64,000 nucleotides of DNA from Hydnum rufescens UP504 (Eukaryota > Basidiomycota > Agaricomycetes > Cantharellales > Hydnaceae), in the NCBI GenBank assembly GCA_014904985.1, contig MU129052.1:79800-143799 (forward strand), read 5' to 3'. The position numbers and the translations under genes are program-made. A model generated the notes under the pieces. It had not been told where the DNA came from, made no database searches, and was given only the letters and a program-made list of their open reading frames with translations. This document shows, piece by piece, positions 7,026 to 61,961 of the stretch (positions are counted from its first letter, which is position 1; the number at the start of each line of letters is the position of its first letter).

Positions 7026-7148
7026 GTTGACTTGTCCAAGGCATGACAGAAACCCACAAAACAATGAGGGACCAAATGGCAATGCAATGCATGGTAATGT
7101 TACACATGCCAATGCAACATGCACCAATGTGCCAAATGAGGACCCCAG

Positions 7149-7294: not shown

Positions 7295-7403
7295 GTTTCA
7301 GTGTCCCTTGCAAACAAATACTGATCCAAACCCCCCCATAACCCCCCTTATCGACACCTGAATGTACAAACTGCCATACATATGAGCTGGAGCACATGGC
7401 CCC

Positions 7404-7561
7404 AGTACCCCACACCACTGCAGCAGGTGTGGGGTACTACAACAAGGTATGTTTTTGCTTTTATTTTTATTTCTTATTCTTGTGGTGCAAAAAGAGCAGC
7501 ATAAGCTGCTCTTTTTGCACTGCATTAATGTTCAGCTAACATTTCCTTCTTATTTCTCTAG
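7404..7561 (+). repeat. Hairpin-intron unit 8
   Basis: HP-B 7,404-7,438, donor GTATGT 7,447, HP-A 7,485-7,520 (perfect stem), GCTAAC branch motif, acceptor CTCTAG ending 7,561 (115 nt). A degenerate HP-B and GTATGT follow at 7,684-7,725, with no HP-A after them, marking the array end. Confidence 0.75.
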
Positions 7562-7784
7562 ACCCTGGACCACAATCTGCACAAACCCCCAAATACAAAC
7601 CCACCAAACAACACACTGTGAATGAAAACCTGCTCCCTCAAGGGAGCACCAGGTGGAACCAGCCCCTGACCAGAGCATATGGATCCCACCTGCTACAGTG
7701 GGCATGGTGGGTATATGCAGGTATGTGACCTGCATGAACCATCCCCCCCTGTGGTGGCAGACCCTGGGGGGATAATATGTATAT

Positions 7785-7832
7785 AATAATAGTAATAATA
7801 ATAATAATAAATAGTAAACAAATAATAATACA
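7785..7832. repeat. AAT-type microsatellite
   Basis: Simple AAT/ATA repeat with interruptions, just outside the last hairpin unit. Confidence 0.8.
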
Positions 7833-7918
7833 TAAGGATATAATCTGGCACAGCCATGGATTGGCCAATAGATGGCCAAAAAACTGAATGGGAATTGCCT
7901 GATTTCAGCCATAAGGTC

Positions 7919-7978
7919 TGGGGGACCTATTAGGTACCATTTTCTGCCCTGAAAGTGGTACCTAAATTGAGTCCCCCA
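7919..7978. repeat. Inverted repeat with 26-bp arms
   Basis: Arms begin TGGGGGACC and end GTCCCCCA, each containing GGTACC. It lies just inside ACTGACCAGCCT (7,984-7,995), which resembles the KDZ terminus, so it may be a subterminal structure of the array element. Confidence 0.6.
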
Positions 7979-8099
7979 TGTGACTGACCAGCCTGAATGA
8001 ACTTGGGATTGAACCAGAGGACATCCTCCAATATGTGTACCAAGTATGAATCTCACTGCAATAACAAATGGTGCATCTGGCAGCACCTTTATGGTGCAG

Positions 8100-20283: not shown

Positions 20284-20470
20284 CAACTCAGTCAGCCACA
20301 AATGTAGGTCTAGTTAGATATTATGAGCCTTGCATTTATATAGTCTAACTAGAGGTTTTGATGCTGGGGCCCCTGGGGCCAGCTAACCTGATTTCCGTGG
20401 TTCAGGCAGGGGCCCCCAGGGGCCCCTGTGTGGGACTTCACATATCAAACCAAGCTCCAACTTATAGATC
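20284..20470 (+). repeat. KDZ left TIR and subterminal GGGGCCCC region
   Basis: Begins CAACTCAGTCAGCC, continues through GCATTTATATAGTCTAACTA to GGGGCCCCTGGGGCC and GGGGGCCCCCAGGGG-like blocks. Nearly identical for about 185 bp to the right end (inverted) of the 5.0 kb hairpin-intron element (61,038-61,222). Confidence 0.85.
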
Positions 20471-20657
20471 TCAACTAGGACTCTCTCCCATACCACTGTA
20501 GTAGAACCAACTTCTATTATGAGGTGTATGTACAAACTATGGACACAGAGGAGTATTTATACACAGGAGTGGGATTAGAAAACTATAAGACATGATGTAG
20601 TTATACACAGGGGTGGAATTAGAAGAGTATAAGTCGTGAGATGAGGTCACTGGGACA

Positions 20658-23600: not shown

Positions 23601-24050
23601 GGGTAGGAGAGGAGGATCATTGGGGTAGTCTACCTGACTGGAAGTAGGAGTTCTATTCAGAAGTGATGCCGATCTCCGAGACTCATGCTGATATTCGACT
23701 TTGGGGATTTTAGGGTGAGATTTGAGTTGGATATATGCCCGATTCTTAGGGGGTTGTGAGGGGGTTGATGCGATGATGCGAAACTTCTTGTTCCTCTGGT
23801 TGCCTCCAGGTGGACCCAATTTTTCCTGCTGTAGACATCATGTAAGAACAGGAGCAGGGATTCTAAGTAGAGGCGTACATACCATGTTGGCAGTTTCGTC
23901 ATTGACTTCGTCATTGACTTCGTCATTAGCTTCGTCATCTACCTTGCGCCTGCCAATATTGATCTGAGGATACGACAGTTCCTGAGACATTGCATTCTGT
24001 TGCGAATAATAGGTGAGCTTGAACTTGCAAGACAAGAAATCAGGAGACAT
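20658..24050 (-). pseudogene. KDZ cargo gene 1, large uncharacterised protein
   Basis: Minus-strand multi-exon gene. ATG at about 23,985-24,050 (MSQELSYPQINIGRRK). A 55-nt intron with GTATGT..CTACAG lies near 23,830-23,885 and another (GTATGT..CTAAG) near 22,985-23,050. The exon 23,046-23,819 encodes a Ser/Pro-rich N-terminal part and an acidic region (SSDDGGSMPESD). The 21,209-22,357 exon is helical and well ordered, and the tail is made of PPASSR(S/L)GPPAGSR repeats ending at 20,658. Two in-frame TGA codons near 22,645 and 22,720 fit former CGA arginine codons. No catalytic motif is recognised. It resembles transposon-borne agaric proteins of unknown function. Confidence 0.55.
21055..21290. 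repeat. Coding minisatellite, 24/48-bp unit
   Basis: About ten copies of CTTGCTGGAGGATCCAATCT-like units in frame with cargo gene 1, encoding alternating PPASSRSG and PPAGSRLD octapeptides. No frame-disrupting unit lengths are seen. Confidence 0.85.
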
Positions 24051-25099
24051 ACAATTTTGGATGACTCCTGTGCACCTGAGGATGATGGTTCCTCAGATGG
24101 GTCATCGAAGGCTTTGTGTTTGGGGACTCACAGTTGTGATTTTCGGTATGTGACAACTTGGCGCATTGCGAAAACACCCTTCACAAATTTTCTGGCCGGG
24201 TTGTTGAAGAAATAGTTCTAAAACTCCCCAAGCTCGAAAATAACATTTCAGGGTGATATTGGGCAACACTTCCAGTCGGAGACCCAGTGTATGGTGAGAT
24301 GGGGACAAGGAGAGTGTAATAGAATTGTAAAGAGAGTGAGCAATGTCTTGGTCTTGAGTCGGAGAAAAACAATGGTGAAGCAAATGCCACCCCCCGCAGT
24401 AACAGTTCCCACTACTCTATCCAGGAGATTCAAGAAAATATTCAGGAATTTCCCAAGACCAAGCTGTCTGGAATGTGCTGGCTTGTGGTTCAGAGGTGCG
24501 ACAAATTTAATATGATGGTCCCAAAGGAGAGTGGATGATACGCAAATGATCCACCTCTCCAGCTGAGATGCTCAAGAGATAACTCAGGAGCCTCTCAAGC
24601 AGAGTGGTTGGTGCGTTTTTGGTGCATAGTGAGAACATCTCACTTGGTATTTGCCGATCTATTCAATGCCTCAACAGAATACCGATAAATGCCATTCCCA
24701 TATGTAGATATACATACATCCATACATACATGCAGGATTAAAAAAAATGAGGTGATGGGACAGGGTAGAAGAACAATGAGAGAATAGCAAAAATATTAAT
24801 CATCTCCCTCTGCTACAAATGACCTCATTGGGCTTCAGAAAGAGGGTCAGTGCTGAACATGAAGAATCCCACTGGATGAACCATTCTTGGGACTCCGTGG
24901 ACCCAATGGCTCATATGCATTGCGAGGGGCGAGAATACCTGATGGACGCATCTCCCAGAGCAGCCGAATCTTTTGCCTTCTGGGCAAGCTCACGAACCAA
25001 AATATCGTACAGTCCTCCAGTAATGTAGAGAGGGACCCAGAATGGCACGATATTGTGGTTAAACCGATCCATGTGGGAATTCACAATCATCACTAAATG
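24051..25099. other. Spacer between cargo genes, no gene recognised
   Basis: Short frames only. Probably promoter/5' region of cargo gene 1 and 3' region of cargo gene 2, since both run leftward. Confidence 0.4.
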
Positions 25100-28000
25100 T
25101 CACTGTACCGCATGATCAACCTCATCCAGAGCTTCCAACAGCCACTTTGTGCTGAAATCCACTCGATCCATAACCTGTGGTGGAGGATAATCACAATCAT
25201 GTACAACTGGAGGATAGCGATAGAAGTCCAGGAAGCGATAGTGAATGTAATGCCGTTAAGGAGGCATCTGTGCCAGGAGGTGGAGGAAAGAGGTGTAACT
25301 CCTGTAGGTCGCCAATCTCTCGATGGGGAGGCACATGCTCCAGTAGGGTGGCAAGATCACTCAGGGATGTCTGGTATGAAAAGGACATCTTCGACGTAAT
25401 CAGGATCCAGCACATATCAAAAGGAAAAAATGGCTTCATGCCAACTGACAGGCACTGAAACAGCCTGTTCAAATTCCCACAGCAAATAATGACCTGAGAC
25501 AAATCAGTCAAGAATGAGGTCCCACCTCCGCTGGGATTTAAAGGCCAGCAACACTTTTTGCTTCTTGCATGCTGGGCCTTTTGCTGTTTTGTTCTTATGA
25601 ACACGAACCCCGAGAAGGCCATCATGCATCAGCAATTGGAAAATTGCCTTGATGTCTACATCGGCAGTGACACCAAAGAATTCGATGCGATACCAATTGC
25701 CAACAACAACAAGTGGATTGAGGTCTTCCACCATTTCCCCAGAAGGCTCAAGACCGACTTCATTTGTACCCCCTTGCTCATCACAAGGCGAAAGTGGTGG
25801 AGCGATTGGCAATGCTGCTTGAAAGGGGGGATCCACTGGCATATGGTCCTGAGGAGGGGGTACAGCTTGCTGCACATCCTGCATTTCGGAATTGCCAGGG
25901 TCAGGGGGAGACACCACAGGACACACAGGTGTCTCCTGCTCTTGATGGTTGATTTCCATCTCTGGCCCATATTGCTGATTGGGGGGGGAATGAGGAGGGG
26001 AATGGCGAGGAGGGGATCGGTGAGGGGATCAGCGAGGAGGGGATCAGCAGGAGGGGATCAGCGAGGAGGGGATCGCAGAGGGGATCGGCGAGGAGGGGAT
26101 CGGTGAGGGGATGGTGAGGAGGGGATCGGCGAGGAGGGGATCGGCGAGAAGGGGAATAGCGAGAAGGGGAATGGCGAGAAGGGGAATAGCAGAAGGGGAA
26201 TGGTGAGAAGGGGAATGGAAGCGATGAGGAGAACGGAAGCGGGAAGGAGGCAAGCGACGCGAGGGGGAACGAGAACGAGACCGACGGGAAGGGCGACGAG
26301 GAGATGCCGAACGATGGGGGGAGTAACATGAAGCGATGGCGGTAATCACCCTGAGAATATCGTTGCGAACCACACTCACCACTGGGTAAGCGACGGCCAG
26401 TAACTCGAGGTCGATTATTCTTACGTGGGCGTGCTGGCCTTGGATTCGAGCATGGCTGGGACCATCTCTGAAGCACATAAGTCTCCAGGGTGGTGCAGTA
26501 CACCTTATGCTTGCTCTGAGCGGCCAGGACCATCAGAAGGATGCGCTCGTGGGCATCTGCATTTCCTGCCAATGCCAGACCCAGGTCCACAGTGACCTGT
26601 GCCCACAGGGGATCTTCATTCCGGGCCTTCTCAATCTGGGCCACAATGCGCACCTTTGCAGCGATCTCCATGTCATTCAAACGTGGCTCCTCATCATCTT
26701 CAACAGACAGATCGGAATCCAAATCGTTCCACTCTGGAAGATTGGTCGTGGGATCGACCCAAGGGGTTAGATCCTCATGGTCTAGATTGGGGGGGGTAGG
26801 CTCTTCGTCGAGATCGATCTCAGCATCAATAGCAACGAGTTCGCCTTTTCCTTCCGGTGGCGAGGTCTTACGAGATGGCAGTGGCACCACATGGCAAAGG
26901 GTGACTGATGAAGGACCGAGGAGATTAGTGAGTGTTGCAGCCATAGCACTGTCCACTTCGCGAAGGCTGGCGCCAAACAAACCGTTGAAGATGGACCATA
27001 TAGACTGATTATTATCAGACATGAAGATCGGATACTGGATGTACCAAGGTGATGGATGCTTGACCTCTGCTGCTCGAGACATCTTCCAAATTTCCACAAA
27101 ATCCCCATGCGGCTCAGTATGTTCAGTGACACGTTCAGCAGCCTCCTGGGTCTCCAGGTTGGAAATGGAACTGAAGGAATCTAGAGGATGGACCTCCCTC
27201 TCCTCCAAAACCCGAATCCCATGCAAGGGAACACCGTGGCGCTCCAACTCGGTGACTGGGACATCCACATTATCCATGATGAAGAAACAACCAATCAATG
27301 AGTGATTGACTCCAAAACAAGGCGGCTCCAAACCACAGACAAAGGCTATATGATCGAGGGTGTGATGCATGAGAAGTCGTGTGGTTGCAAGCATCTCCGC
27401 TTCAGTGTCCTCAATGGCCACAACCTCCTTAGTAATTGCATGCTTAGAGTAGGATGCCTGGGCAGCTTCCGGTAGTTCTCGATCCCTACTCTCGACCAGA
27501 AGCATCACCAAGTCAGAGTGGTGGTTGGGTTGGAAGAGTGGCACGTTGTTGAGGTCCAAAAGGAAAAACTGCGCAGCCTCCAACCACCAGCAGTAACAGT
27601 CAACATGCGAATATAAGCTTCCCGCACATTTCACTGATCCAGCAGTTATTGAGGTACCAATCGTGTGTGAGGCGAACTTTGCCGAATGGTAAGAACAGTG
27701 TGGTTCAGTGCTGGAGGAGATAGGGATGATGCAGGGCATTGCAATTGTAAATGTGCCTCACACACAGCTTGTCAATGAATGACCAGGCCGAATGTGGTTG
27801 CTGCCAGGATCGAACATCGCAGGGAGACTCGGGCCAATGTCTATGCAGGGTTTCTCCAGGTAGCATAGAGTTAAGGCCAGAAAACAACAGGTTGAAAGGG
27901 GGACGTGCTGGAACGGCGCCGGGGTTCTCCAACAGTCCCAATAGTTCCTCAGACATATCCTTCTCCCAAAGGGTATTGGTGTATTTGAGCACCCAGCCTT

Positions 28001-28459
28001 GGATACTGACAAAACGGTCGTCAGAGATAGGCCGTTCACCGATGGCATCTTTGAAGACCAAGTTAGTCTTTGGGAACTCCTGATATGAAATTTATATAAA
28101 TGCACCACGTCGCTTCTGCTTGAAGTGACAGAAGTACCGCTCGCAGACCTCTCCGTATGACTCGAGAATTGAAACGACAACTGGGCTTCATGGGGGTGAG
28201 AGGTTCGCCCAACCGCCATTGCAACGGCCTGGAATTGTCCAAGGTGTCCACGGGTAAAGACTTCTCGGGTTTCGACTGTAGAGCTGGTGGTAGAGGCGGG
28301 TGTCGAAGTGTTAACTTTCTTTTGGAACTTGGGGAACACCTTCTGTGAGCTGCCAGACGATGACGCTGCAGGGGTAGGAGATGCCAGCGTCGAAGAATGT
28401 TCGGTCGTTTGACTCGGTTTCTTGCTCGAGGTCGGTCTTTTTGATGTAGTTCTCACCAT
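25100..28459 (-). pseudogene. KDZ cargo gene 2, large uncharacterised protein
   Basis: Minus-strand gene beginning MVRTTSKRPTSSKKPS at 28,459 with a Ser/Thr-rich N-terminus. It then has a globular region (WVLKYTNTLWEKDMSEELLG; WWLEAAQFFLLDLNNVPLFQ; HHTLDHIAFVCGLEPPCFG), an acidic segment (27,000-26,650), a G/C-rich repetitive stretch (25,981-26,340) and a C-terminal part (25,504-25,959) with an RRM-like IEFFGV..AIFQLL fold pattern. Final codons lie near 25,100 (MDRVDFSTKWLLEALDEVDH). Several frame changes between 28,250 and 27,560 indicate unplaced introns or indels. Layout resembles other transposon-borne agaric proteins. Function unknown. Confidence 0.5.
25981..26220. repeat. G-rich minisatellite, about 15-bp unit
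   Basis: About 15 copies of (A/C)GAGGAGGGGATCGG-like units drifting to GAGAAGGGGAATGGC. Four-G runs every 11-12 nt on the plus strand. Lies within the region of cargo gene 2. Confidence 0.9.
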
Positions 28460-29077
28460 CTCTCTAACAGACCCGTACGACCCCAGAGCAGACTAACCAC
28501 TCCAAAGTGCAAAGATAAGTTTGAGGGATAACTGAGACTCTGAGAGGTCGGAAGGAGAGTTAAAGTTGAGAAGATTTGCATCTGCACATTCGATTGAGGA
28601 TGCCGAATATTTGTGCCAAACGTTACGGGACTTGATACTATTAGCCACATTAAAAAGGATACATTGTAATATTATTCCTAAGGCATTATCTATGAGTCTA
28701 CAGCTGGAGTTGATTGAACTCACTTGAGCCACTTCTGAAAACTAACGTGGCTCTTCGGGCGATATAGTGTACTTATGGCAGACTAGATAATACGTGTTTT
28801 CAGTATTCCATTTAAATCATATACATGTGCCAGTCCCACACGAATCCGTGATGCGATTCGAACTCTGTATCTAAAATGCAACAGTCCATTTCCATATATA
28901 TATATGTTCACATGACTCCGTGACACGATTCGAACGCCGTATCCAAAATTCCTTAAAATAACAAGCGAGCAGTGACTCGGGACGCGGCATCATACTGATA
29001 TAATGAGTTCCTGAGTTCTTGGCGAATATCGCTCCAGGACGAGGGCATCCCATTCATTTTGGAGTGTGTGAAGGATG

Positions 29078-29564
29078 ACCGGGATTGAGGTCAGAGTCGC
29101 TGGACATGGGGACGCAGTCTGAGAATCTATCCGTCCGGCAATATAAGCCTGACCAGTTTGAAGAGATGAGTCCACTGAAGGCTTACTGGTTTTTATTTGG
29201 ATTAAATCCTCTTCTGTGAGTCTTCCCCAGTGATTGGATTCGGTTCCATTTTCCAAGATATATTTCTCTATCAAGTGACGCTCGTAAAGGTGTCCTAATT
29301 TCGAAGATACAATGGGGATTTGGGGGGGATAACCGGGATTGAGGTGAGAGTGGCTGGGCATTGGGGCACAGTCTGAGAATCTATCCATGCTGGCAATATG
29401 AGCCTGGCCAGTTTGAGGAGATCAGTCCACTGAAGGCTTACTGGTTTTGATTGGGATTAAATCCTCTTCCATGGGCCTTTCCCCAGTCATTGGATCGGTT
29501 CCATTTTCCGAGACATAGTTCTCTATGAAGTGATGCTTGTAAAGGTGTTCTGATTTCGAAGACA
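29078..29564. repeat. Tandem duplication, 254-bp period
   Basis: The segment from ACCGGGATTGAGG (29,078) to TCGAAGATAC (29,310) recurs from 29,332 to 29,564 with roughly 85-90 percent identity. Confidence 0.85.
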
Positions 29565-30566
29565 CTGGGCACGTCCCCAGACAATGCCATTGTTGTTAAC
29601 TGGAAACAGCCACAGCGTTATGACTCATGTCGAAATAGTCACAATAATCGAGCGTCACGTCACACGATTCAACTTAGGGGCTATACGAGTTGCAGTCCAA
29701 GTCTGTATCGGGTACACCTCTTGGATCTATGTGGACAGGTGTATTGACTGCGGTGTGAATATTTGAAAATATATTGGTCAAAGTCTGACTTGACAAAACA
29801 ACTGCAAGAGCTCAAGACAGAGCTTCTTAGCCTGAGCCTGCGTGTGCAAAAGATTGCCTCTCCGTTGGCATCCAAGCTCTCCCAAATGTGTGTTGCACAT
29901 AGTGATTTTCTCCACTAACAAATGAACACGCCTGTTTCTCCTACACCTTTAGCTCCACCATTCGCAAATCTATCACCTGTGTTCTGACTGTCACCAACCA
30001 AAAAGCATGCCAGAATCTGTGAGAATATTACAAGAACAAGAAGTACCTTCCTCTGGATGGACCTGCACATAAAGAAAACCCATGCCATCCGCCATCGATT
30101 GACAAGGGTGGGTTACCCCCTTCTTGCTATTCCCCTATTGACGCCCAATGCGCCTAATTCTTTTTTCTGGCACCAGCAATCAGGGAAGACAGAAAAGCAA
30201 CACAAACAGGACATTCACTTCCCTACCAGGAAATACACTCTTAAGGCATGAGGGAGCAAAGTGAAAATCACTCATCAGCTTCGACCTCACTGTCATGTAT
30301 GTGGAAGAATTTTTGACTTGGAGGTCAGGAAACACTGTTGTATGAGCGAAAGTGGCCAGTATTGATCAGGCGAGGGTGCAGTTGATATAGCTAGTCTTAG
30401 AACATTATTTGATTTTTGATTCGTGAACAAATTCGAATTTACTTTGAGGTGCATGTCTCTTGCTGGGGTGTTGAATCGCTGGTTTTCCAGTTTGCATCCG
30501 GAAAGTTCATTTTGACACTGCTTGTAGCCTTATTGCTTGGAATTGTGATCATAAAATCTGTGGACG

Positions 30567-31050
30567 GGCATTCTACCCAGTCTGTGTGTCCCAGGCTTAC
30601 ACAATCCAGTTTGACAGACAGAGTCATCGCTCGTGAACAAACATTCTACCCAGTCTGGGTTTACGCAACCTGGTTCGACAGTACTGATTACTGCCACGTA
30701 TTGGGTCCACCATTCTGATTGGCATCACACTTGTTGCTCTGTAAAATCCGTGAACAAGCATTCTACCCAGTCTGCATGTTCCGTCACACCACTGCTTGTA
30801 GCCTTATCACCTGGAATTGTGATCATAAAATCTGTGGATGGGCATTCTACCCAGTCTGCATGTCCCAGGCTTACGTGATCCAGTTCAACAGCTACTGTCA
30901 GAGTCATCACTCATGAACGAACATTCTACCCAGTCTCAACCCGGTTCGACATTACTGATTACTGCCCACGTATTGGGTCCACTGTTCTGGCTGGTGTCAC
31001 TCTCATCCTCGTAAAATCCATGAACAAGCATTCTACCCAGTCTGTGTGTT
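30567..31050 (+). repeat. Six-copy CATTCTACCCAGTCT motif array
   Basis: Copies at about 30,569, 30,645, 30,759, 30,842, 30,922 and 31,030, each preceded by (G/A)(A/G)(G/A)CA or GGG and set in longer partial repeats (GTATTGGGTCCAC; TTGTGATCATAAAATCTGT). Starts about 200-670 bp upstream of the transposase ATG. Confidence 0.8.
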
Positions 31051-31242
31051 CTGTGTTTAGGCGGTTCATGTGAGTGACACTTGATTATCTTCCTGGCTCC
31101 TACTATTGGTGAGTACAATTCTGTTACTCAGGCCATTGCCCACTAATGCTGATATGTTGGCCATAAGGGTTGTGATTAATTCATCCATAGAATTTGCATA
31201 TGACTGTCCCACCAAACCAACAAGCACCACTGCCCATTCACC

Positions 31243-34200
31243 ATGCCTCCCAAACCCTCCAATGTCAACATTCCAATTGATGAGAGCAACCCACAATCCT
31301 CTCGTAAGCGTAAATGTCCCTCCAGCAGGCTACAAACCCATCCCTCCCCACCAACATCTGCTGCATACTTGAGTGCATATGAAGATAGTATGAGAATGTT
31401 CCAAGCTGTGACCAATTCCATAACTAAATGGAATCCCGCCCATGGGGCATCAAAGAGTATGACCCCCACTGTGAACCTGGGGCCCACATTGGCATCGATG
31501 TTTAGAGTGACACCACTCCCCCAATCCAGTACCAAGCATGTATCCACCATGCAAGGTACGGCTTGGAAACTCAATCCCAATAGCAATACATTTGTGGCAG
31601 TTGTACCAACGAATCGAGGCACTAAGGTGCAACGACCGACTCCCCAAGCCAATATATCTAGGCCTCGCTATCACCAAAATGCACCGTCTTCCGAGCCATC
31701 CCATCTTCCTGATCCTGGTGGTCCATCTATGTTTTCTGGTGACATCGAAGAGGAATTGGCAGCAGGTGGCAGCAATGTTTCTTCTTTAACCTCACCCAAG
31801 GCAGTCAAGGAGCCCTTTGTCATTCAATACCCGCTGTATGCCAGAGATCTTGACCGGATATCTGTGGAGCAGAAACTGTCTCAACATGTGCGTCGACAGG
31901 CTGTTGCAGTGCAATGTTGGAATTGTGATGTCATACCTGGCTTAATTCATCCATATATGGAGCACATGCATGAATCACAGTGAGGCCAGCTGCCTACAAG
32001 CCCTGTGCCACACACGTGCTCTTGCGATGGCATTGGGGTAATGAAGCAGGTGACTGCGGTATACATGGATCATGAGTACATGCTTGGTTTGATCTTGGTC
32101 CAGAAACTGGTAATTGTCCATCTAGGCCTCAACTATGTGCAACTATGCATATGTCCATGTGCCCCTGCACCTGTCCAATTGGTAAAGCGGGGTTTGTTCC
32201 CCTGCTTGCCAGTGTATCCAGCTCTTGCTGTCAGCCTCGACATGCTGGAGTTTGTGTCCATGTTGTTTGTACACTTGGCTCCAAATGAGACAGCATGGGC
32301 AGATGCCCTGACCTCATTTTTGGCAAGGTGAGGCCATGTATTCGAAGCACAGGACTTGCTCTGCTGACGATTTGCGTCTGCCTTAGGCCAATACCAGGTC
32401 CTGGTATGCATTGTTACTGCCGAGATGGATAAACAGATCAGTGTGGCATGGCATGTAGTCCTCTCGCAAGACCCTGCTGATAGGGGTGATATTCCTCCAG
32501 AAACAATAATGTTACCCATAATCGATGACTCCACCCCTATAATGAATTGTTTGTACATCAGTGTGCTGAGTCCCGACGGTTGGTCTGTTCGCCAGCCCTC
32601 TACTTCCACCACAGAGAATTCTTCTCAGTCTCATTGCAATTGCTCCACCTGTGCCCAACCCAACCTCCATACTCATTCTAACACCCATTCTGTACCGTCT
32701 GATTACCTTCGTTCTTGGTGTCTGTTGTGCTTCGGAGGTGATGTATCAGGAGGGGGTAAACTGTGAGTATTTTGCAATTTATCCTCATGTCTCTTGCTAA
32801 TTTAGTGACGTCTTTTGCAGGCCCGACTTTTTCTTATGCCTTGATGCCTGCTTCGCCATCAGGAGGAACAAAGACTATGATCAGCGGCCAGGCCACAAAA
32901 AGCAACTGGGCATTCAGGACCCTTGCATTGTTCCACCTGGAACCCACAAATTGCCCTGAAGTTTCCTGGAGATCTGGAAAGCAAGGGTTGAAGAAGCCCA
33001 TCCTGGCAATCCAGCTAGGTGAATGTTGAAGAAGGGAGAATATGCCCTGGACAGCCCAGATGCTGATGATGACATTATCGAGGCTGGGCTACATGTCCCA
33101 AATTCGTCGCTAAATATCTGTGGTGAATCCTTTGTTGCTGCAGATGGTGACAGGGTAAAGACTCCTGGAGAGCACTTCTCAGACACTGGTGTGATGGCAG
33201 GTGTATGTCGTCATGATCATGTGGTCATGTGGGTGAATATGTGGACTCCCGGTGAACAGCAATTCTATGCATTGGCTCTCATTGACGCGATCATGGCCGA
33301 GCTTCCCACGCACTGGCGAGTTGGTATCCTGTATGATATCAGCTGCCAGATTCATCACAGCATACTTAAGTGGAATCTGTTGCCTCGGTGGATACCCCGG
33401 ATTGTGTTTGGAATAAGTGTGTTTCATGCATATTGCCATCAATGGGTGTGCCAGCTATGGTACCATCCTCGGAAGGGGGGTGTCTGGGGCCTCACTGATG
33501 GAGAGGTTGCAAACACCTTTGGAATGATCTTCGGTGCCTCATTCCAAATCTCTGTGTAACCAGATTCCATTGACGTTTGTTTGTTTTGGATCTCCAAATT
33601 GAACATCTGGACCACTTGAAGATGCAACAGGCAGGTGTCTGGTTGGAGAAGCGTGTGAAAGCTATGAAGGCTCGCCTCATAATTGCTCAGGAGAAGAGAG
33701 CCAGAATCCCACTCAGCAATGAGTTCCTGCAGTCTCAATTTGAAGAACAGTGAGCCTACCAGAGCCGACCTCTCGAGCAACAATCAAAGAAAAAGGGATT
33801 CCTTGCTGTTGAGAAGATCCTGGCTGTCCGTCAATGCCTTGATGCAGCTTGGGATCTTGTTGAGGCCCTCCAGAAGCAACTCATTGCCATACCAGTGTCT
33901 GACACCATTGCAACTCAGAATGAGGTTGGGGAGATTACATCTGCCCTTGCTGAACAAGAGAAAGTTGTCTCATGCTTGTCGAAGCAAGAGGATGATTTAA
34001 CTGCCATCCTCAAGCTTGGAGACCTGGTGTCATATGACAACCTCAAGAAAATGAAGGATCACCCATGGTTTGAACACCAACTTAATATGCGTGCACTTAA
34101 AGCACACATTCTTGCCAAGGCATGCCAGAGGAATTTCAAGGCACATAATCTCACTGGTGCTTTCAGGAGCAAAGCCTTAGGCAAGTTATTCATAGTTGGA

Positions 34201-35656
34201 GTTTAACTTGTATTATATTGTATTAACATTATTATCCTTGATGATAGATCACAGTACTGCGGAACACATGAATAAAGCATTGAAATGGTGGTATTGGTCA
34301 ATCAAGAACCTTGTTATGGACTACAATAAGCACCGACTCAGTATGATCAAGCTTCGCAGATGGCGTGGGATTCCCCATAATGCAGTCATCCCTCCTCCCA
34401 TTGAGATGAAGGGTCTTTTTAGTCTTGATGTGTACAATGATATCTGGCAAGATATTGGACTTGCCAATGATGAATTTGGCAGACAGGTCCCTCCTTGGCT
34501 AGGGGATGAGGATGTCCAAAATGGGATCCAAATTGTTCAAGAAATTATGAATTGCTGTGATGAACTATATCTCTGTGAATGTGAACGGTCCTCTTTGCAG
34601 CATTGGTTCAATGATGAATCGGCTGCATTGATCGCCGTTTTACAGGCTTCCAAAGGTAAGGGGGTGATATCTGGCAGAAGGGTGTGCTAATTTAGTCTAC
34701 CTGCAGAGGATGCTGACCTCCAGTTCTTCTTGTGGGAACATGCTCAGTGGCTTATAGATTTGGGCAAGAGGTGGGGATGCTCCATTGATGCATTAGCCCC
34801 CAATGTTGCTCAGTCCGAGGTCAGTCAATCCGAGGTCGGTCAATCTGAGGTTGGTCAATCCAACGTTGGTCAATCCGGGGTTGGTCAATCTGGGGTTGGT
34901 CAATCCGAGGTTGGTCAATCTGGGGTTGGTCAATCCGAGGTTGGTCAATCTGAGGTTGGTCAATCCAAGGTCACTCAATCCGAGGTCACTCAATCCAAGG
35001 TCACTCAATCCGAGGTCACTCAATCCGAGGTCGCTCCATACAAGGTCACTCAATCCAAGGTCGCTCAATCCGAGGTCACTCAATCCAAGGTCGCTCAATC
35101 CGAGGTTGGTCAATACAAGGTCACTCAATCCGAGGTCGCTCAATCCAAGGTCGCTCAATCCAAGGTCACTCAATCCGAGGTCGCTCAATCCAAGGTCGCT
35201 CAATCCAAGGTCGCTCAATCCGAGGTCGCTCAATCCAAGGTCGCTCAATCCAAGGTCGCTCAATCCGAGGTCGGTCAATACAAGGTCGCTCAATCCGAGG
35301 TCGCTCAATCTGACATGCCTCAATCTGGCATCTCTTGGGCTGATTTCCCTCAACAAGGTGGCAGAACCTTGACTAGTGAGACCAGGGCTCTGCTTGATTG
35401 CAGGGTGCCCCTCCCACCCCTGTCCAAGTTGGCAGGGTCCTTAGCTGAACAAGCAGCAATCCCAAAGTTGCCAAGGTCAGACAAATGGACAGTGGGCCCT
35501 GGAGAAGGGGAGGTGGATAGCTCAGATGATGATGAAGAATTTGAGCCAGAGCCTCGGCCAGTTATTGCTGACCCAGTCCTACTCACAGCTACAGACCTCC
35601 TTCATGAGGGTCATTTGGATGATATGGGAAGTGAGACTAGTAGTGATGAAGAATAA
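31243..35656 (+). pseudogene. KDZ transposase (CxC-type), inactivated
   Basis: Multi-exon, ATG at 31,243 (MPPKPSNVNIPIDESN). N-terminal CxC region: WNCDVIPGLIHPYMEH, then TCSCDGIG and CICPCAP. Then PSDYLRSWCLLCFGG, an intron (32,763-32,820), the catalytic block FFLCLDACFAIRRNKDYDQR, GVCRHDHVVMWVNMW, GILYDISCQIH, FHAYCHQWVCQLWYHPRKGG and GLTDGE at about 33,490-33,510. A 1-nt deletion just after GLTDGE shifts the frame. The shifted frame continues GCKHLWNDLR and then meets a TGA where arginine is expected. The C-terminal part resumes to 34,690, has an intron (34,656-34,706) and a pentapeptide repeat, and ends MGSETSSDEE at 35,656. The family name rests on motif recognition. Confidence 0.85.
34803..35330 (+). 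repeat. 15-bp coding minisatellite (QSEVx repeats)
   Basis: About 35 in-frame copies of CAATCCGAGGTCGCT-like units encoding QS(E/K)V(A/G/T) near the C-terminus of the transposase. Two other frames are also open across the array because the period is a multiple of three. Confidence 0.9.
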
Positions 35657-35709
35657 GTCCATGTTATCTACATATGTACTTAGCAAAAATAATACAGAAA
35701 CTGAAACCA

Positions 35710-35950
35710 TTCAGTTAATTGTGGGGGGCCCCTAGCTGAACTTAGAAAATACTCGGGTTTGAAATGAGGCCTTTGGAGGCAGTGCTGAGGGGCCCCTGGG
35801 GCCCCTGGATCAGTACTTGAGCCCCCCTGAGCCCATCCAAGTTAGCCCACAGGGGCCACCAGGGGCCCCATGGGCTGTATATCTAATTAGAGCATATAAA
35901 TGCAACCCTCAAAGTATCTAATTAGATACTGATAATTGGCTGACCAGCCT
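35710..35950 (-). repeat. KDZ right TIR and subterminal region
   Basis: Inverse of the left end in order: GGGGCCCC blocks (35,727-35,870), GCATATAAATGCAACCCTC, TATCTAATTAGATACTGATA and GGCTGACCAGCCT. Matches the left end of the 5.0 kb element at 56,227 (inverted). Confidence 0.85.
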
Positions 35951-35959
35951 GTTGCTAGA

Positions 35960-55639: not shown

Positions 55640-56217
55640 GGGTCCTGCAATACTCCCTGAGCCTGGAGAAAGCATTCCACAGCCTGGGTTCTGACTCGAA
55701 GGTATCGTGCTCCGGCCCATAGCCCTTCCATCTTACGAGATACTCTCTTCTTCATTTCTGTGGATTGTATCAATGCCCAACTATTCTTTCTACTTCATAC
55801 TCTTCTTCTGTGGCTAATTCTCTCATTTCTGGGAGCTTCGCTTGTTCTTCTGCCTGGTCATTGCGGTAGTATTTCATTAGATGTTGTATATTTATAACAG
55901 GGTGCATCTTATACTCAGGCAGTATCTGGAGGCGATATACTACTGGGTTGATCTTTTCTGAGACCAGGAAAGGGCCTATGCGACATTGTACTAGCTTTCT
56001 CCCTGTCCCTTGTATGTCCACTAGCTCCAAGGAATGAGGGTTCACTAGAACCTCATCCCCTTCTTCAAATTCCTCATCGCGTCATTTAAGATCGTAGGCT
56101 TTGGCTTGCCTGGCTTGGGCTTGTACTAAAGCATCCCTTGCTCGGGATCGGTGCACCTCAAGCTTGTTGATAAAGGCTGTTGCTGCTATGCCATTGGGCT
56201 CAAGCCAGGCGATTCCT
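55640..56217 (-). pseudogene. Chromovirus integrase C-terminus and chromodomain
   Basis: Minus strand: LEVHRSRARDALVQAQARQA, then the GPF module (VQCRIGPFLVSEKINPVVYR; HPVINIQHLMKYY). EEEYEVERIVGH begins a chromodomain, continued in another frame by LVRWKGYGPEHDTFESE and NAFSRLREY (about 55,735-55,650). The chromodomain directs integration toward marked chromatin in chromoviruses. A TGA after VERIVGH sits where arginine is usual. The 5.0 kb element (56,227-61,222) separates this part from the catalytic core. Confidence 0.85.
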
Positions 56218-56226
56218 CTCTTTACC
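56218..56226. repeat. 9-bp target duplication (left)
   Basis: CTCTTTACC, repeated exactly at 61,223-61,231; identity extends two more bases (AG), so 9-11 bp. Nine is preferred because it gives matching element ends (AGSCTGGTCAGCC) here and in the 20,284-35,950 element. Confidence 0.9.
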
Positions 56227-56385
56227 AGCCTGGTCAGCCAATTATCGGTATCTAATTAGATATTTCAAAGGTTGCATTTATATACTCTAACTAGATATCA
56301 GACCCAGGGGGCCCCCAGGGGCCCCTGCAATTCAGTCGAGGGGGCAGGTCAAGCAGCCCAGGGGCCCCTGGGGCCCCTAGCCATT
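56227..56385 (+). repeat. Left TIR and subterminal region of the 5.0 kb element
   Basis: AGCCTGGTCAGCCAATTATC, TATCTAATTAGATATTTC, GCATTTATATACTCTAACTA, then GGGGCCCC blocks to 56,385. Inverse counterpart of 35,710-35,950. Confidence 0.85.
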
Positions 56386-56445
56386 AGGATTATTTATTAT
56401 TTATGATTTATTATTTATTTATTTGTTTATTATTATTATATACAC

Positions 56446-56549
56446 TAGGCTCGCCCAGTGGGGCTCACCCATGCACTCAAGAAGAGCAGCCAGAGGCTGC
56501 TCTTCTTGCGCAATGTAGCCAAGGAAAATACATACTGGGGGGGACTCAC
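56446..56549 (-). repeat. Left-arm unit L5 (outermost)
   Basis: Donor GTGAGT at 56,549, HP-A 56,478-56,508 with a compensated variant stem (CAAGAAGAGC/GCTCTTCTTG), acceptor CTAG near 56,446 (about 104 nt). No HP-B before the donor. Confidence 0.65.
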
Positions 56550-56706
56550 CATATATAGGGCCACTCGTTGGGCGCGTTCGGTTCTCGTTTGGTGCATTGC
56601 CGTTCGTCGCGTCACCGTTCGTTGCGTCGCCATTCGTCATGTCGCCATTTGGTGTGTTGCCGTTCGGGCCCTTGTTGGTTTCGCGGGTTTTCGTTGTGGC
56701 CACAAT

Positions 56707-56853
56707 CTAGAGTAATAAAAGATATATTAGTACAAATATTCAAACCAGCGCAAAAAGAGCAGCTTTCACTGCTCTTTTTGCACGGGTGTAGCTACTGGGG
56801 GGCGGGAAACTCACCTTATATAGTACCACACACCCGCCGTGGCGGGTGTGTGG
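56707..56853 (-). repeat. Left-arm unit L4
   Basis: HP-B 56,826-56,853 (13-bp stem), donor GTGAGT 56,814, HP-A 56,748-56,783, TACTAAT branch motif, acceptor CTCTAG ending 56,707 (108 nt). Confidence 0.8.
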
Positions 56854-57957
56854 TTCCTCAGGCCCTCCTTTGACATGGTCACACCCTTGTTTTGTGCGTT
56901 GCTGTATGTCGCATTGCGGTGTGGCGCATCTTCGTTTGGTGCGTTGCTGTGTGTCGCGTTGCGTGCCTTGGAGGTCTCAATCTAGAATAATAACAACACG
57001 TTAGTAACAAAATCCAAAGCAGCGCAAAAAGAGCAGCTTTCGCTGCTCTTTTTGCGCCATTGTGTCTACTAAATATAAATAAAACATACCTTGCAGTACC
57101 CCACACCCGCTGCGGCGGTGTGGGGTACTGGGGCTGTGTACTGTGGCTCGTACGTACGGCGGTTCGTACGGGCACCCGTCGTTTGGGTGGCGATAAGGGG
57201 GTTATGGGGGTTCTGCCCCAGTACGTTTGGGACGTCGAGACCTACAAGATAAGACTTTAAATTAGTTAAGAATTAAAAACCATGCAAAAAGAGCAGCTTT
57301 CACTGCTCTTTTTGCATGGCTGTTGCTACTGAGGGGGGCGGGGACTTACCTTACATAGAACCACACACCCGCTGTGGCGGGTGTGTGGGTCCGGGGCCTC
57401 ATTTGGCGTGGTGCCGTATGTCGCATCATTGGCGCAGGGCCATGTCACGTCGTTGGCGTGTGGCTGGGTTGTGTTGTTGGCGCATTGCCGTGTATCGCTT
57501 TGCCGTGCGCCGCATTGCCGTGTCACGTCGTTGGCGCGTTGCCATGTCACATTGTTGGCACATTGTCATGTATCGCTTTGTCGCGTCGCATTGCTGTGTG
57601 TCGCGTTGCCGTGTGCTGCACTGCTGTTTGGGCTCTCGTCGTTTTGCGGGTTATCATGGTGCGTTGGACGGGCCCAATCTACAAAAAGGCGCATCAGTAA
57701 AAAACATTCCAAAGCAGTGCAAAAAGAGCAGCTTTCGCTGCTCTTTTTGCGCCATTGTATCTACTAAAACAATACTCACCTTGTGACCACACACCCGCAA
57801 CGGTGGGTGTGTGGTCGGGTGCTTGCCTTTTCAGGCGGTTGTTTATTGTGGTTCGGAGATGGGGAGTAAGATGTAGATTCAACGCCAGCAAGTGCCAATA
57901 CTCAAGAAGTGCCCAAGCGCTGGCACTACACGCACAATACACATTAATAGCAAGCAT
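56815..57957 (-). CDS. Candidate spliced ORF of left arm
   Basis: If L1-L4 are spliced, an ATG at 57,957 (MLAINVYCACSASAWALLEY) runs into exon 2 (57,678-57,350), exon 3 (57,241-57,090) and exon 4 (56,981-56,815), open except for one TGA in exon 2 (a likely former CGA) and one near 56,890. The product would be basic, rich in His/Thr/Arg/Asn, low complexity, with no recognisable domain. The exons contain very little T on the coding strand, so stops are rare by chance and the open frame is weak evidence for a protein. Intron phases differ (1, 0, 2). Confidence 0.25.
56982..57129 (-). repeat. Left-arm unit L3
   Basis: HP-B 57,095-57,129 (AGTACCCCACACC class), donor GTATGT 57,089, HP-A 57,022-57,057 (perfect 16-bp stem, 4-nt loop), ACTAAC branch motif, acceptor TTCTAG ending 56,982 (108 nt). 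Confidence 0.8.
57242..57388 (-). repeat. Left-arm unit L2
   Basis: HP-B 57,361-57,388, donor GTAAGT 57,349, HP-A 57,280-57,319 (stem CCATGCAAAAAGAGCAG), TAACTAAT branch motif, acceptor CTTGTAG ending 57,242 (108 nt). Confidence 0.8.
57679..57816 (-). repeat. Left-arm unit L1 (innermost)
   Basis: HP-B 57,785-57,816 (GACCACACACCC), donor GTGAGT 57,779, HP-A 57,717-57,752, TTACTGATG branch-like motif, acceptor TTTGTAG ending 57,679 (101 nt). Confidence 0.8.
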
Positions 57958-58510
57958 GTAAATGTGTAATAAATACTATATAATAAATATTTGTCCAAAA
58001 AAAAGGAAGAAGACGATAATAGTAAGGCAGAGTTCAATAAGACATGATATGGCTAATTGGATTGGACCACTTCTACACATCAGAATAGGCCCAAATTTAA
58101 ATATAGTAATGGTATGTATACACCCTACATGGGCGGCTAATTATATTGGACGGTTCTCACATTTTTCAAGTTTTCACGCCTTCAATTCCCTAAATAGGGA
58201 ATTGAAGGTGTGAAAACTTGAAAAATGTGAGAACCGTCCAATATAATTAGCCGCCCATGTAGGGTGTATACATACCATTACTATATTTAAATTTGGGCCT
58301 ATTCTGATGTGTAGAAGTGGTCCAATCCAATTAGCCATATCATGTCTTATTGAACTCTGCCTTACTATTATCGTCTTCTTCCTTTTTTTTGGACAAATAT
58401 TTATTATATAGTATTTATTACACATTTACATGCTTGCTATTAATGTGTATTGTGCGTGTAGCACCAGTGCTTGGGTGCTTCTTGAGTATCGGCACTTGCT
58501 GGCATTGAAT
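57877..58510. repeat. 634-bp central palindrome with symmetric TATA-like motifs
   Basis: Arms are nearly identical for about 250 bp on either side of 58,193/58,194 and then diverge slowly. TTATTATATAGTATT occurs at 58,401-58,415 pointing right and its mirror at 57,972-57,986 pointing left. First donors lie at 58,602 and 57,779, about equal distances from these motifs. The centre is TTCCCTAAATAGGGAA. A divergent promoter is inferred. Confidence 0.8.
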
Positions 58511-58511
58511 T

Positions 58512-59115
58512 GTGCAACTATGCAGCCACACCCAGCAACAGCCCAGACAGGCGAGCACACGACCACACACCCACTGCGGCAGGTGTGTGGTACTATTTAA
58601 GGTGAGTTCCCTTCCCCCAATGATACTGTGGCGCAAAAAGAGCAGTGAAAGCTGCTCTTTTTGCGCTGCATCGAATTTCTTTACTAACTTAGTTATTATT
58701 CTAGGTCCTGGCCTGGTCCCAGGTGCCAAACAACGAAATCCAACCGGCCAGGCCCCCACGGCAACACGCCAAACGAAACCACACGAAACGAAAGGAAACA
58801 ACGCCAAACGAAAGCACGAGAGGTGGCAACGCGAACCACACACCCGCTGCGGCGGGTGTGTGGTTCTATATAAGGTAAGTATGCTTATACACCCACAACG
58901 GCATGAAAGAGCAGCAGATGCCGCTCTTTTGCGCCGATTTTAGTTCTTAACTAATACAGTATTTATTATTCTAGGTTATCGACCAGAAGCAGCAAAATGA
59001 CGATCCGCCGAACGAACCACCCAGAAATGATGATGCGACCTGCCAATGACGGCTGGCCAGACAAAACCCTGATGGAACCACACATCCGCTTCGGCGGGTG
59101 TGTGGTAAATTTAAG
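58512..59115 (+). CDS. Candidate spliced ORF of right arm
   Basis: ATG at 58,512, just outside the palindrome (MQLCSHTQQQPRQASTRPHT). Splicing R1 (58,602-58,704) and R2 (58,875-58,974) keeps one frame open for 133 codons through exon 2 (QVPNNEIQPARPPRQHAKRN) and exon 3 (MEPHIRFGGCVVNL) to the R3 donor. R3 has a mutated acceptor, so the frame cannot be followed. Basic, low complexity, no known domain. The T-poor composition makes open frames likely by chance. Confidence 0.25.
58563..58704 (+). repeat. Right-arm unit R1 (innermost)
   Basis: HP-B 58,563-58,590, donor GTGAGT 58,602, HP-A 58,631-58,666, TTACTAAC branch motif, acceptor TTCTAG ending 58,704 (103 nt). Confidence 0.8.
58836..58974 (+). 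repeat. Right-arm unit R2
   Basis: HP-B 58,836-58,863 (CCACACACCCGCTGCGGCGG), donor GTAAGT 58,875, HP-A about 58,901-58,934 with a few mismatches, TTAACTAAT branch motif, acceptor TTCTAG ending 58,974 (100 nt). Confidence 0.8.
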
Positions 59116-59216
59116 GTAAGCATCTGTACAACCATGCAAAAGGAGCAGCATATGCTGCTCCTTTTGCGTGGCTTTTCTTTTTTTTCTTTTTCACTAACTA
59201 TTATTTTTTATTCCAT
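59078..59216 (+). repeat. Right-arm unit R3, acceptor lost
   Basis: HP-B 59,078-59,105, donor GTAAGC 59,116, HP-A 59,134-59,169 (GGAGC/GCTCC variant), CACTAAC branch motif. The expected TTCTAG reads TTCCAT, so the 3' splice site is destroyed while the hairpin remains. Confidence 0.7.
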
Positions 59217-59366
59217 ATTGTCATTTGAACACACAACAAAGCCCCCCACCAAACGAAAGCTACGAACGTAACCCGCCAAAACCCCAACCAAACAAAACCC
59301 GCGGCCCACCAGACGAACCCGGGACCGGAAACCCACGATGCGAGACCACAGAAAACACAGACAGAA

Positions 59367-59512
59367 CCACACACCCACTTCGGCGGGCGTGTGGTCATGT
59401 CAAGTAAGCATATGTACAACCGCGCAAAAGGAGCAGCATACGCTGCTCCTCTTGCGTGGCTTTTTTCTTTTTTTTTTTTCTTTTTCACTAATGTATTATT
59501 TATTTATTTTAG
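59367..59512 (+). repeat. Right-arm unit R4
   Basis: HP-B 59,367-59,394, donor GTAAGC 59,404, HP-A 59,421-59,457 (GGAGC/GCTCC variant), CACTAATG branch motif after a long T tract, acceptor TTTTAG ending 59,512 (109 nt). Confidence 0.8.
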
Positions 59513-59627
59513 GTTGTTATCGGAACCCACAATGAAGCCCCCCGCCAAAACCCCAACCAAACGAAACCCCCCACGATCAGCTAACCAGACGAAACCCGCA
59601 ACGCGAGACCACAAAGCGCAGACGGAA

Positions 59628-59835
59628 CCACACACCCACTTCGGCGGGTGTGTGGTAATCACAAAACCAAGGAGAAGAACAGCAGGAACATAGAGTGCCA
59701 CACACCTGCTGTGGTGGGTGTGTGGCATATTTGGTAAGTCTTCTTTTAATAGCTACAAATGCGCAAAAAGGGCAGCAGTTGCTGCTCTTTTTGCGCAGTT
59801 GTTACTCTTCAACTGACACTTTATTTTTATTCTAG
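59628..59835 (+). repeat. Right-arm unit R5 with two HP-B copies
   Basis: HP-B at 59,628-59,655 and again at 59,697-59,726, donor GTAAGT 59,734, HP-A 59,761-59,796, AACTGAC branch motif, acceptor TTCTAG ending 59,835 (102 nt). The first HP-B probably belonged to a lost unit. Confidence 0.75.
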
Positions 59836-60042
59836 CCTAAGATGTCCTACCTAAACCCGCAAAACCACACAGCCACAAACGCAAACCCGCAACGACGAAT
59901 GCAACGCAGAAGCCCCAAATGCCACCTCGTGACCATGCGAATAGGACCCACGCAAAGGGGCAACCAAAGGCCCACCATACCCCCTACGAATGCATGACGG
60001 CAAACGACGCCCCGTGCCAACGCATGATACCGAAATGAGCCA

Positions 60043-60186
60043 GACCACATACCTGCTGCAGCGGGTGTGTGGTCACCTAAGATGAGTTCCTTTCCCCCGT
60101 AGATACAGCAGCGCAAAAAGAGCAGCGAAGGCTGCTCTTTTTGCATCGCCTTTAACTATTTACTAACCTAACTTTTTTTATTCTGG
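60043..60186 (+). repeat. Right-arm unit R6, both splice sites lost
   Basis: HP-B 60,043-60,074. The donor position reads ATGAGT (60,082) and the acceptor TTCTGG (60,186), G-to-A and A-to-G changes from the norm. HP-A 60,111-60,145 and TTACTAAC remain. Confidence 0.7.
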
Positions 60187-60261
60187 ATCTTGCTCCCCCA
60201 AAAACCCCCGAACCCACGTGAGCTCCATACAAAAAACCGAGAGTGGAAGCGGTACGAACGA

Positions 60262-60406
60262 GTACCCCCACCCGCTTCGGCAGGTGGGTGGTACCATGGT
60301 TTTTTTTTTAAATTTTATTTTATTTCTATGCATACAGTGATGCAAAAGGAGCAGCACAAGCTGCTCCTTTTGCATTGCTTTTGAATTTTTTACTAATGTA
60401 TTCTAG
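60262..60406 (+). repeat. Right-arm unit R7
   Basis: HP-B 60,262-60,294 (GTACCCCCACCCGC), weak donor GTTTTT 60,299, HP-A 60,340-60,375 (GGAGC/GCTCC variant), TTACTAATG branch motif, acceptor TTCTAG ending 60,406 (108 nt). Confidence 0.7.
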
Positions 60407-60480
60407 GATCCGAACCGAAACCCGCAAAACACACCACCCGCCCCCATATGCAAACTACACGACAGGGGGCCAAAATGAGT

Positions 60481-60628
60481 ACCACACCCGCCTCGGCGGG
60501 CGGGTGTATGGTACCATAAGGTATTTTTTTAAAATTTTCTATACGTACAGTGACGCAAAAGGAGCAGCACAAGCTGCTCCTTTTGCGTCACTTCAAATTT
60601 TTTTTACTAATGTCCACTATTATTCTAG
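60481..60628 (+). repeat. Right-arm unit R8
   Basis: HP-B about 60,481-60,512, donor GTATTT 60,521, HP-A 60,551-60,590 (18-bp stem TGACGCAAAAGGAGCAGC), TTACTAATG branch motif, acceptor TTCTAG ending 60,628 (108 nt). An orphan HP-B at 60,785-60,810 ends the arm. Confidence 0.8.
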
Positions 60629-61037
60629 GATCAAATCCAAAGCTCCAAAACGACAACCCACCCCCAACGGACATGCGTGGCCAGTCGAAACAATCCGTGC
60701 AATGGTGGACCGCCGAGCCCCCCAAATGGCCACCGATGAGCCGGTCGAACCCCCACCCAACCCCCCAAGGGAGAATTGGCTGGTACCACACCCGCTGAGG
60801 GGGGTGTGGTATGTTTTTTTTTAAATTGAATTTTTAAATAAATAAATAAATAAAGAAGTAAATAGGAATGGAACCTACCACCCATGACCGGGTGGTGTAA
60901 TGATAATAAATAATAATTATAGACGAAACATCACCCCAGAGGGGGTATAATATAATAATAAATAATTGTGATCATCCCCAATAAGCCCATATGGCCCACT
61001 GTGCAAGTCTGAGCTTAGGTGACTGACCAATGCCTAA

Positions 61038-61222
61038 CCCAATATATTGAAGTTCTGTGGCCAGTCTAAGTCCCACACAGGGGCCCCTGGGGGCCCCTGC
61101 TTGAATCACAGAAATCAGGTTAGCCGGCCCCAGGGGCCCCAGCATCAAAACCTCTAGTTAGACTATATAAATGCAAGGCTCATAATATCTAACTAGACCT
61201 ACATTTGTGGCTGACTGAGTTG
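61038..61222 (-). repeat. Right TIR and subterminal region of the 5.0 kb element
   Basis: Inverse of 20,284-20,470 with near identity: GGGGCCCC blocks, TAGTTAGACTATATAAATGC, then GGCTGACTGAGTTG at the edge. Confidence 0.9.
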
Positions 61223-61231
61223 CTCTTTACC
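61223..61231. repeat. 9-bp target duplication (right)
   Basis: CTCTTTACC, partner of 56,218-56,226. Confidence 0.9.
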
Positions 61232-61961
61232 AGGTCTATTGCCACTGCTTTCGTCTGTGGTGCATACCCATGCAATAGGAAGAAGGGTGAATAGCCCGTG
61301 GAGGAGTGTGGCGTAGCATTGTGGGCCATCGCTAGCGTCCCTAGCCACTGGGCCCAGGAGCTACAATTGCCCACAGTATACACTTGTAATGCTACCTCTA
61401 GCGTGTCATTAGCCTTTTCGGTCTGCCTGTCCATTTGGGGGTGATGTGAAGTCGAGAGCAGTAGGCCCAGGTCTAAGTGCTTGGCCACCGACACCCAGAA
61501 AGACTTGGCCCATCTGGCGTCTCGATCAGCGATCATTTGGTGGGGGATACCATATTTCAGAACCAGGTGTTGCACGAATAGCTTCGCGAACCCCTCCTGC
61601 TTTAGGTTGGAAGTAGTGGGGATGTACTGGACAAACTTTGTAAGCTTGTCTATGATCACTAATACTGCGTTGAACCCCTCTGACTTCAGGAGGCCCATAA
61701 TCAGATCTAGCGTAACTACTTCGAATGGAAGCAGCGGGATCGCATGGGGGCGTAGCTTTCCTGCAGGGCCACGTTTGTCTGACTTGGTCTTTTGGCAGAC
61801 GTCGCATGTTCTTGTAAATTCTATGATGTCAGCCCACATTCTGGGCCAGTAAAATCTCACGGCTAGCTTGTGAAACAGCCTGGAGGACCCTGCATGTGCT
61901 GCTTCCCAGGGGGACTCATGAGAATCTTGGATTATTTTCCTCACCTCCAACTTGGGTATGC
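61223..61961 (-). pseudogene. Chromovirus integrase, zinc-binding and catalytic core
   Basis: Minus strand from 61,961. HHCC zinc-binding region: DSHESPWEAAHAG then CDVCQKTK. Catalytic D,D,E: first Asp in VVTLDLIMG, second in MIADRDARW, Glu in DRQTEKANDTLE. Frame is open to the insertion point after AIDLVK. Removing the 5.0 kb element and one duplication restores the same frame with the 56,217-55,640 segment. Upstream RT/RNase H is cut off at 61,961 by LTR-A. Confidence 0.9.

Follow-up and report, generated by a model that had tools for sequence, protein, structure and literature searches.

A transposon that encodes no protein would be expected to be free to lose everything except its ends, and the question raised by the locus described here is why one such element should have kept an elaborate interior. 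The element (positions 56226-61222; 4,997 bp) lies in a 64,000-nucleotide stretch of the Hydnum rufescens UP504 genome (contig MU129052.1, positions 79,800 to 143,799 of the forward strand), hereafter called the window, and it carries two arms of repeated, intron-like hairpin modules that run outward from a central palindrome. If the splice signals of this interior are under purifying selection, then the element's RNA and its splicing must aid its spread. On the strength of the patterns described below, we consider that the family to which this copy belongs probably consists of non-autonomous Kyakuja-Dileera-Zisupton (KDZ)-type transposons that keep two divergent, spliced, non-coding transcription units.

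Splice signals and hairpins across the family

The genome searched comprised 63.2 Mb in 539 contigs, and counts from similarity searches of it are lower bounds. The exact pattern of the intronic hairpin, HP-A, had 1,920 matches against 0 for the same pattern read backwards, and the pattern of the exonic hairpin, HP-B, had 1,799. Twenty stretches, none above 10 kb, were picked from matches to the element ends or the hairpins and read, and they and the window together yielded 223 hairpins, each with the GCAG...CTGC core that the collection required; hairpins with altered cores, namely that of module R2 in the window copy and a variant at L045 and L046, thus stand outside the 223. A set of 99 non-redundant modules, no two of which aligned at 80% identity over 190 nt, defined the consensus: an exon, HP-B (ACCACACACCCGC-loop-GCGGGTGTGTGGT), about 8 nt, the donor GTAAGT, about 25 nt, HP-A (GCGCAAAAAGAGCAGC-loop-GCTGCTCTTTTTGCGC), a T-rich spacer, the branch motif TACTAAC, TTATTCTAG and the next exon. 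The median intron length was 107 nt, and the number of units varied between copies. Of the 150 modules lying no more than 2.6 kb from one of 18 palindrome centres (15 loci), 146 pointed outward and four did not.

Among the 99 modules a donor was found in 83, a branch motif with an acceptor in 79, and all three signals, on a single strand and at the spacing of a spliceosomal intron, in 70, as also in 9 of the 13 modules of the window copy. The complete set occurred in only 2 modules on the antisense strand and in 2.2 after dinucleotide shuffling; each module had been oriented by its splice score, which lowers the antisense figure and leaves the shuffled figure unaffected. Mean pairwise identity was 0.88 in the HP-A stem, 0.81 at the acceptor and 0.77 at the branch motif, against 0.44-0.56 in the intron spacers and 0.35-0.40 in the exons. 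Genome-wide, ACTAAC was found 6-35 nt downstream of HP-A 824 times, compared with 12 times for the reversed letters.

The same pattern was seen among close relatives. Orthologous modules were grouped round a reference on overall similarity, giving nine groups with 76 sequences in all; one three-member group of these was kept outside the column averages, and variation outside CpG amounted to 0.3% in splice columns (n = 107), 3.5% in intron spacers (n = 464) and 6.1% in exons (n = 882; permutation p = 1e-4). The GT of the donor was intact in 69 of the 76 sequences and the AG of the acceptor in 74. When the column comparison was repeated on modules that had been selected beforehand for having called splice sites, the order was the same, but the result, being circular for the splice columns, was not used. 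The module identities, the 70 complete modules against 2.2 in shuffled sequence and the column variation contradict the alternative that these are plain satellite repeats lacking conserved splice motifs, and they support the view that the splice signals have been selectively conserved. Taken with the outward direction of the modules, this agrees with the divergent pair of intron-rich units proposed in the preliminary description of this DNA. Judging from these features, the introns are very probably spliced now, or were spliced while the family spread.

The HP-A hairpins also appear to be kept as pairs. At one variable stem position we counted 1,490 A-T pairs, 407 G-C pairs and 23 mixed pairs where some 655 mixed pairs would be expected under independence, a comparison that is descriptive and not a probability, the copies being related. 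Canonical pairing over the 99 modules reached 95% for HP-A in register, against 34-50% when the stem was slid by one or two columns, in a collection whose hairpin detector itself favoured paired stems. Two loci, L045 and L046, carry a double stem change from A-T to T-A; they had been considered as a case of intron loss, and on alignment proved to hold an intact module with this compensatory change. UNCG loops in HP-B of the non-redundant modules were commoner on the sense strand (17/68) than on the antisense strand (3/68), which is suggestive only. With about 14-22 bp, the HP-A stems, put forward earlier as a possible source of small RNAs, look short for Dicer.

The window copy and its KDZ ends

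The central palindrome of the window copy (57877-58510; 634 bp) was confirmed, its two arms of 316 nt (57877-58192 and 58195-58510) being complementary at 308 of 316 positions. The palindrome is a putative divergent promoter, as it contains TATA-like blocks in mirror image (57968-57991 and 58396-58419), which recur in some other copies. In some copies the two arms agree at 93-97%, in others at about 79-88% (the copies compared include L043, L046, L047 and the second palindrome of C480), and the arms may be re-formed or converted now and then.

Around the palindrome lie 13 HP-A hairpins, five leftward and eight rightward, exactly as had been described, and the accompanying claim of 13 full intron modules of 100-109 nt holds for nine of them (L1-L4, R1, R2, R4, R5 and R8), the remaining four having lost a splice signal. 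On the minus strand, going outward, the complete introns are L1 (57679-57779, 101 nt; HP-A 57717-57752) and three of 108 nt, L2 (57242-57349; HP-A 57275-57324), L3 (56982-57089; HP-A 57022-57057) and L4 (56707-56814; HP-A 56744-56787). They are followed by L5 (56476-56549), in which a donor at 56549 and HP-A at 56476-56510 were found and a branch site and acceptor were not. The complete introns of the plus strand are R1 (58602-58704, 103 nt; HP-A 58627-58670), R2 (58875-58974, 100 nt; HP-A core 58907-58930 with one stem mismatch), R4 (59404-59512, 109 nt; HP-A 59420-59459), R5 (59734-59835, 102 nt; HP-A 59755-59802) and R8 (60521-60628, 108 nt; HP-A 60546-60595), the last with a weak donor, GTATTT. 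The automatic caller overlooked intron R2, which was recognised on manual reading; together with its HP-B it has a folding energy of -58.3 kcal/mol (z -7.4 against shuffles). In the same arm, R3 (59116-59173) keeps a donor at 59116, HP-A at 59130-59173 and a branch motif and has lost the acceptor AG, R6 (60113-60144) keeps HP-A, its donor reading AT instead of GT and its acceptor TGG, and R7 (60336-60406) has HP-A, branch motif and acceptor and no good donor. Fourteen HP-B exonic hairpins of about 30 nt each, mostly just 5' of a donor, are spread over 56825-60812. L5 and its counterparts in other copies mostly show a donor without branch motif or acceptor (splice score 1 of 3), the full score of 3 being reached in L035 and L038, and this outermost hairpin of the left arm may be where the transcript ends.

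The element begins with CAGCCTGG, ends with GAGTTG and is flanked by the target-site duplication CTCTTTAC on the left (56218-56225) and on the right (61223-61230). This duplication is 8 bp long and not 9 bp as first proposed; the next letters, C-A-G, match by chance, since exactly 8 bp, of a different sequence each time, recur in 9 of 11 comparable end pairs. The two exceptions are L037, with a duplication matching at 7 of 8 positions, and L035, an apparent composite of copies with no matching duplication. The termini are inverted, as reported, and common to many copies, and the inverted repeat is imperfect: the left terminus (56226-56295, plus strand), which begins CAGCCTGGTCAGCC, matches the right over 45 bp at 82%, and the right terminus (61068-61222, plus strand) has 155 bp with 97% identity to the right end of a 15.7-kb KDZ element in the same window. 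At least 40 places in the genome carry the left end and at least 40 stretches match the right (window copy included, with 40 candidates scored for each). By eye, the flanks at 55800-56225 and 61231-61700 look like one retrotransposon polyprotein gene interrupted by the insertion. An isolated 27-bp stretch at 1535-1561 of the window is identical to the right terminus and is perhaps a broken or solo end.

The 15.7-kb element (20284-35951, minus strand) has the same ends and an 8-bp duplication, TTGCTAGA, and is a candidate autonomous partner. It contains an open frame on the plus strand (33023-33556) with the KDZ transposase domain (PF18758; E 8.1e-35), the only one of eight open frames tested to match a Pfam family, the seven others, long frames among them, being unmatched. 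Homology between the two elements is limited to the outer 102 bp (86%) and 155 bp (97%), and neither HP-A nor HP-B was found in the larger one by a search with the patterns tried. KDZ matches in the genome number at least 154, from a search that scored 150 of its 584 candidates. Because the window also holds a KDZ-domain element that has the same termini and an 8-bp duplication, the 4,997-bp element is best read, as the preliminary description also had it, as a non-autonomous KDZ derivative, with an interior that would be foreign to the candidate autonomous element.

Positions 4650-7993 of the window hold an older array of this type, in which HP-A modules surround another palindrome (centre about 6294). 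Several of its modules retain the hairpin and splice motifs despite near-total loss of CpG: the observed/expected ratio is 0.02 in this array, 0.83 in the window copy and 0.32 in the whole window. Such loss is as expected from methylation-linked decay.

Exons and rival explanations

The exons do not behave as coding sequence. Only 157 of 1,181 pairwise gap runs in 74 exons of eight ortholog groups were multiples of three, and because their indels disregard the reading frame the exons are probably non-coding; a pair of protein-coding genes was rejected on the same count. We nevertheless considered that the arms might be relics of an intron-rich protein gene, present as two divergent copies, that a KDZ element once carried, with splice signals that are now unselected leftovers. 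Some exons do hold repeats with a period of 15, 24 or 78 nt, and 68 of 135 exons are open in frame against 50.2 in shuffles. This excess follows from the T-poor composition of the exons (12% T with HP-B removed, against 36% in introns), which also predicts the still larger number of open exons on the antisense strand (98/135). Along with the frame-breaking indels, the tenfold lower variation of splice columns than of spacers among close copies makes such an origin unlikely. The third left-arm exon of copies L029-L039 measures 222, 236, 250, 264 and 292 nt (five copies), in steps of about 14 nt, an internal repeat that would break any reading frame.

Several observations weigh against the reading of the family as spliced, non-coding units. 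In the alignment of the 99 modules the GT pair stands in just 42 of 85 sequences, a low count due to a one-column shift that is visible in the column counts; the AG is intact there in 84 of 98. Six of the seven GTs missing from the ortholog groups fall in a single group, where GT is present in 2 of 8 sequences, and the low variation of splice columns carries a mild downward bias, as the group references had called splice sites. The copies are related, so that the counts are not independent events, and four of the 13 modules of the window copy (L5, R3, R6 and R7) are broken. Nor need maintenance of the stems mean RNA, because the mixed hairpins show no preference for G-U on the sense strand (G-U 7, A-C 10 and 6 of 23 unassigned); hairpin-templated DNA repair could be what keeps the stems.

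The upkeep of the stems as pairs and this lack of G-U preference also favour the idea that HP-A and HP-B are DNA hairpins or binding sites, for a transposase or in recombination, and that their likeness to introns is secondary; the number of units varies between copies as it would in recombining arrays. That idea leaves unexplained why donor, branch and acceptor are conserved at the right spacing on one strand only and why the modules point outward, and it must contend with a KDZ-domain element that has the same ends and none of these hairpins. GNRA loops, moreover, favour the sense strand (26/91 against 3/91), and we regard a purely DNA-level role as rather unlikely. Still less probable, and in our judgement very doubtful, is that the unit of HP-B and intron is an introner, a mobile intron multiplying within the element and into host genes. 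The 1,920 exact hairpin cores and the varying number of units would suit it. However, three hairpins picked because they stood apart among the first 50 listed each proved to sit in a further such array (L047-L049), and comparison of 174 joined junctions with the loci read gave no clean presence or absence of a unit at splice sites. The 106 BLAST rows spanning these junctions revealed no precise intron loss or gain within those loci, the rows beyond the L045/L046 case having been set aside on coordinates, weak identity and self-similarity of HP-B without row-by-row alignment. The suggestion that the element is a source of new host introns is therefore not supported, although these results are not a genome-wide exclusion.

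Proposed function and relation to known systems

Promoter activity, transcription, splicing and an advantage to the element are what we infer from the arrangement of the sequence, and the non-autonomous, spliced family favoured here could work as follows. KDZ elements with the same ends would presumably supply the transposase that moves the family. Two divergent non-coding units would start in the central palindrome with its mirror-image promoters, each a chain of modules in which a T-poor exon ends in HP-B, the 5' splice site follows some 8 nt on, and the intron carries HP-A, a CTAAC-type branch site and then a TTCTAG acceptor. Lying between donor and branch, HP-A would most likely fold in the pre-mRNA and loop about 36 nt out of the roughly 107-nt intron, leaving about 70 nt, so that the spliceosome would meet a normal short fungal intron.

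Splicing itself may be the payload, with splicing efficiency rather than a protein selected during the spread of the family, probably against RNA surveillance; we offer this tentatively, as a possibility that falls short of being probable. The nature of the benefit is more doubtful again. Our first choice would be that efficient splicing allows escape from spliceosome-coupled RNA interference, and the genome does contain regions with a Piwi domain (8 matches spread over three contigs). Alternatively, spliced transcription could hold a copy unmethylated, open and accessible to the transposase. The CpG ratio of 0.83 in the window copy against 0.02 in the older array is in line with an unmethylated copy, but youth alone could explain it. 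If the splice signals are indeed under purifying selection, the idea that transposons evolve good introns against spliceosome-coupled silencing would become directly testable on many intact and broken natural copies, and the family would offer a collection of natural hairpin introns in which the effect of intron folding on splice-site use could be studied.

Some features of the family have counterparts elsewhere. Foldback-type elements are non-autonomous and consist of inverted arrays of repeated modules; here, in contrast, such arrays lie within the element, between short true termini, and their modules have splice signals with a direction. Literature searches over open-licence PMC papers, among which subscription papers are mostly absent, brought up no title or abstract opening that reports a comparable transposon.

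The KDZ group (Kyakuja, Dileera and Zisupton) comprises DNA transposons found in fungi, of which Zisupton and Dileera make 8-bp duplications and Kyakuja a 7-bp duplication, with CA..TG ends and without inverted repeats (PMC12730594). The element described here has ends like those of a KDZ-domain element, a fixed duplication of 8 bp like Zisupton and Dileera, and CA..TG ends like Kyakuja, to which it cannot be assigned given its 8-bp duplications and imperfect inverted ends. That account covers elements with transposase and TET/JBP genes, in contrast to the non-autonomous element reported here with its imperfect inverted ends and its interior of intron modules.

Introners are transposons that act as introns in host genes, and many resemble non-autonomous DNA transposons (PMC9860276). 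They share with the present family repeated introns of spliceosomal type and, in many cases, features of non-autonomous DNA transposons, but here a single transposon with its own exons contains many introns, and no such intron was met in a host gene among the loci read; by present evidence, the element does not appear to be an introner. Hairpin introns of Aspergillus average 183 nt where introns peak near 65 bp, and their hairpin has been proposed to shorten the effective length (PMC2467506). The modules resemble these in placing a hairpin within a longer-than-usual fungal intron, although the Aspergillus examples are host introns and ours, at about 107 nt, are repeated, have near-perfect hairpins and lie in a transposon. 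In Cryptococcus, the SCANR system turns poorly spliced transposon transcripts into small interfering RNA (PMC5851062), so that the quality of splicing of a transposon transcript decides its silencing, as may hold for the Hydnum family. There, the host defends itself against poor splicing; here, a transposon appears to retain good splice signals, and the two may be linked.

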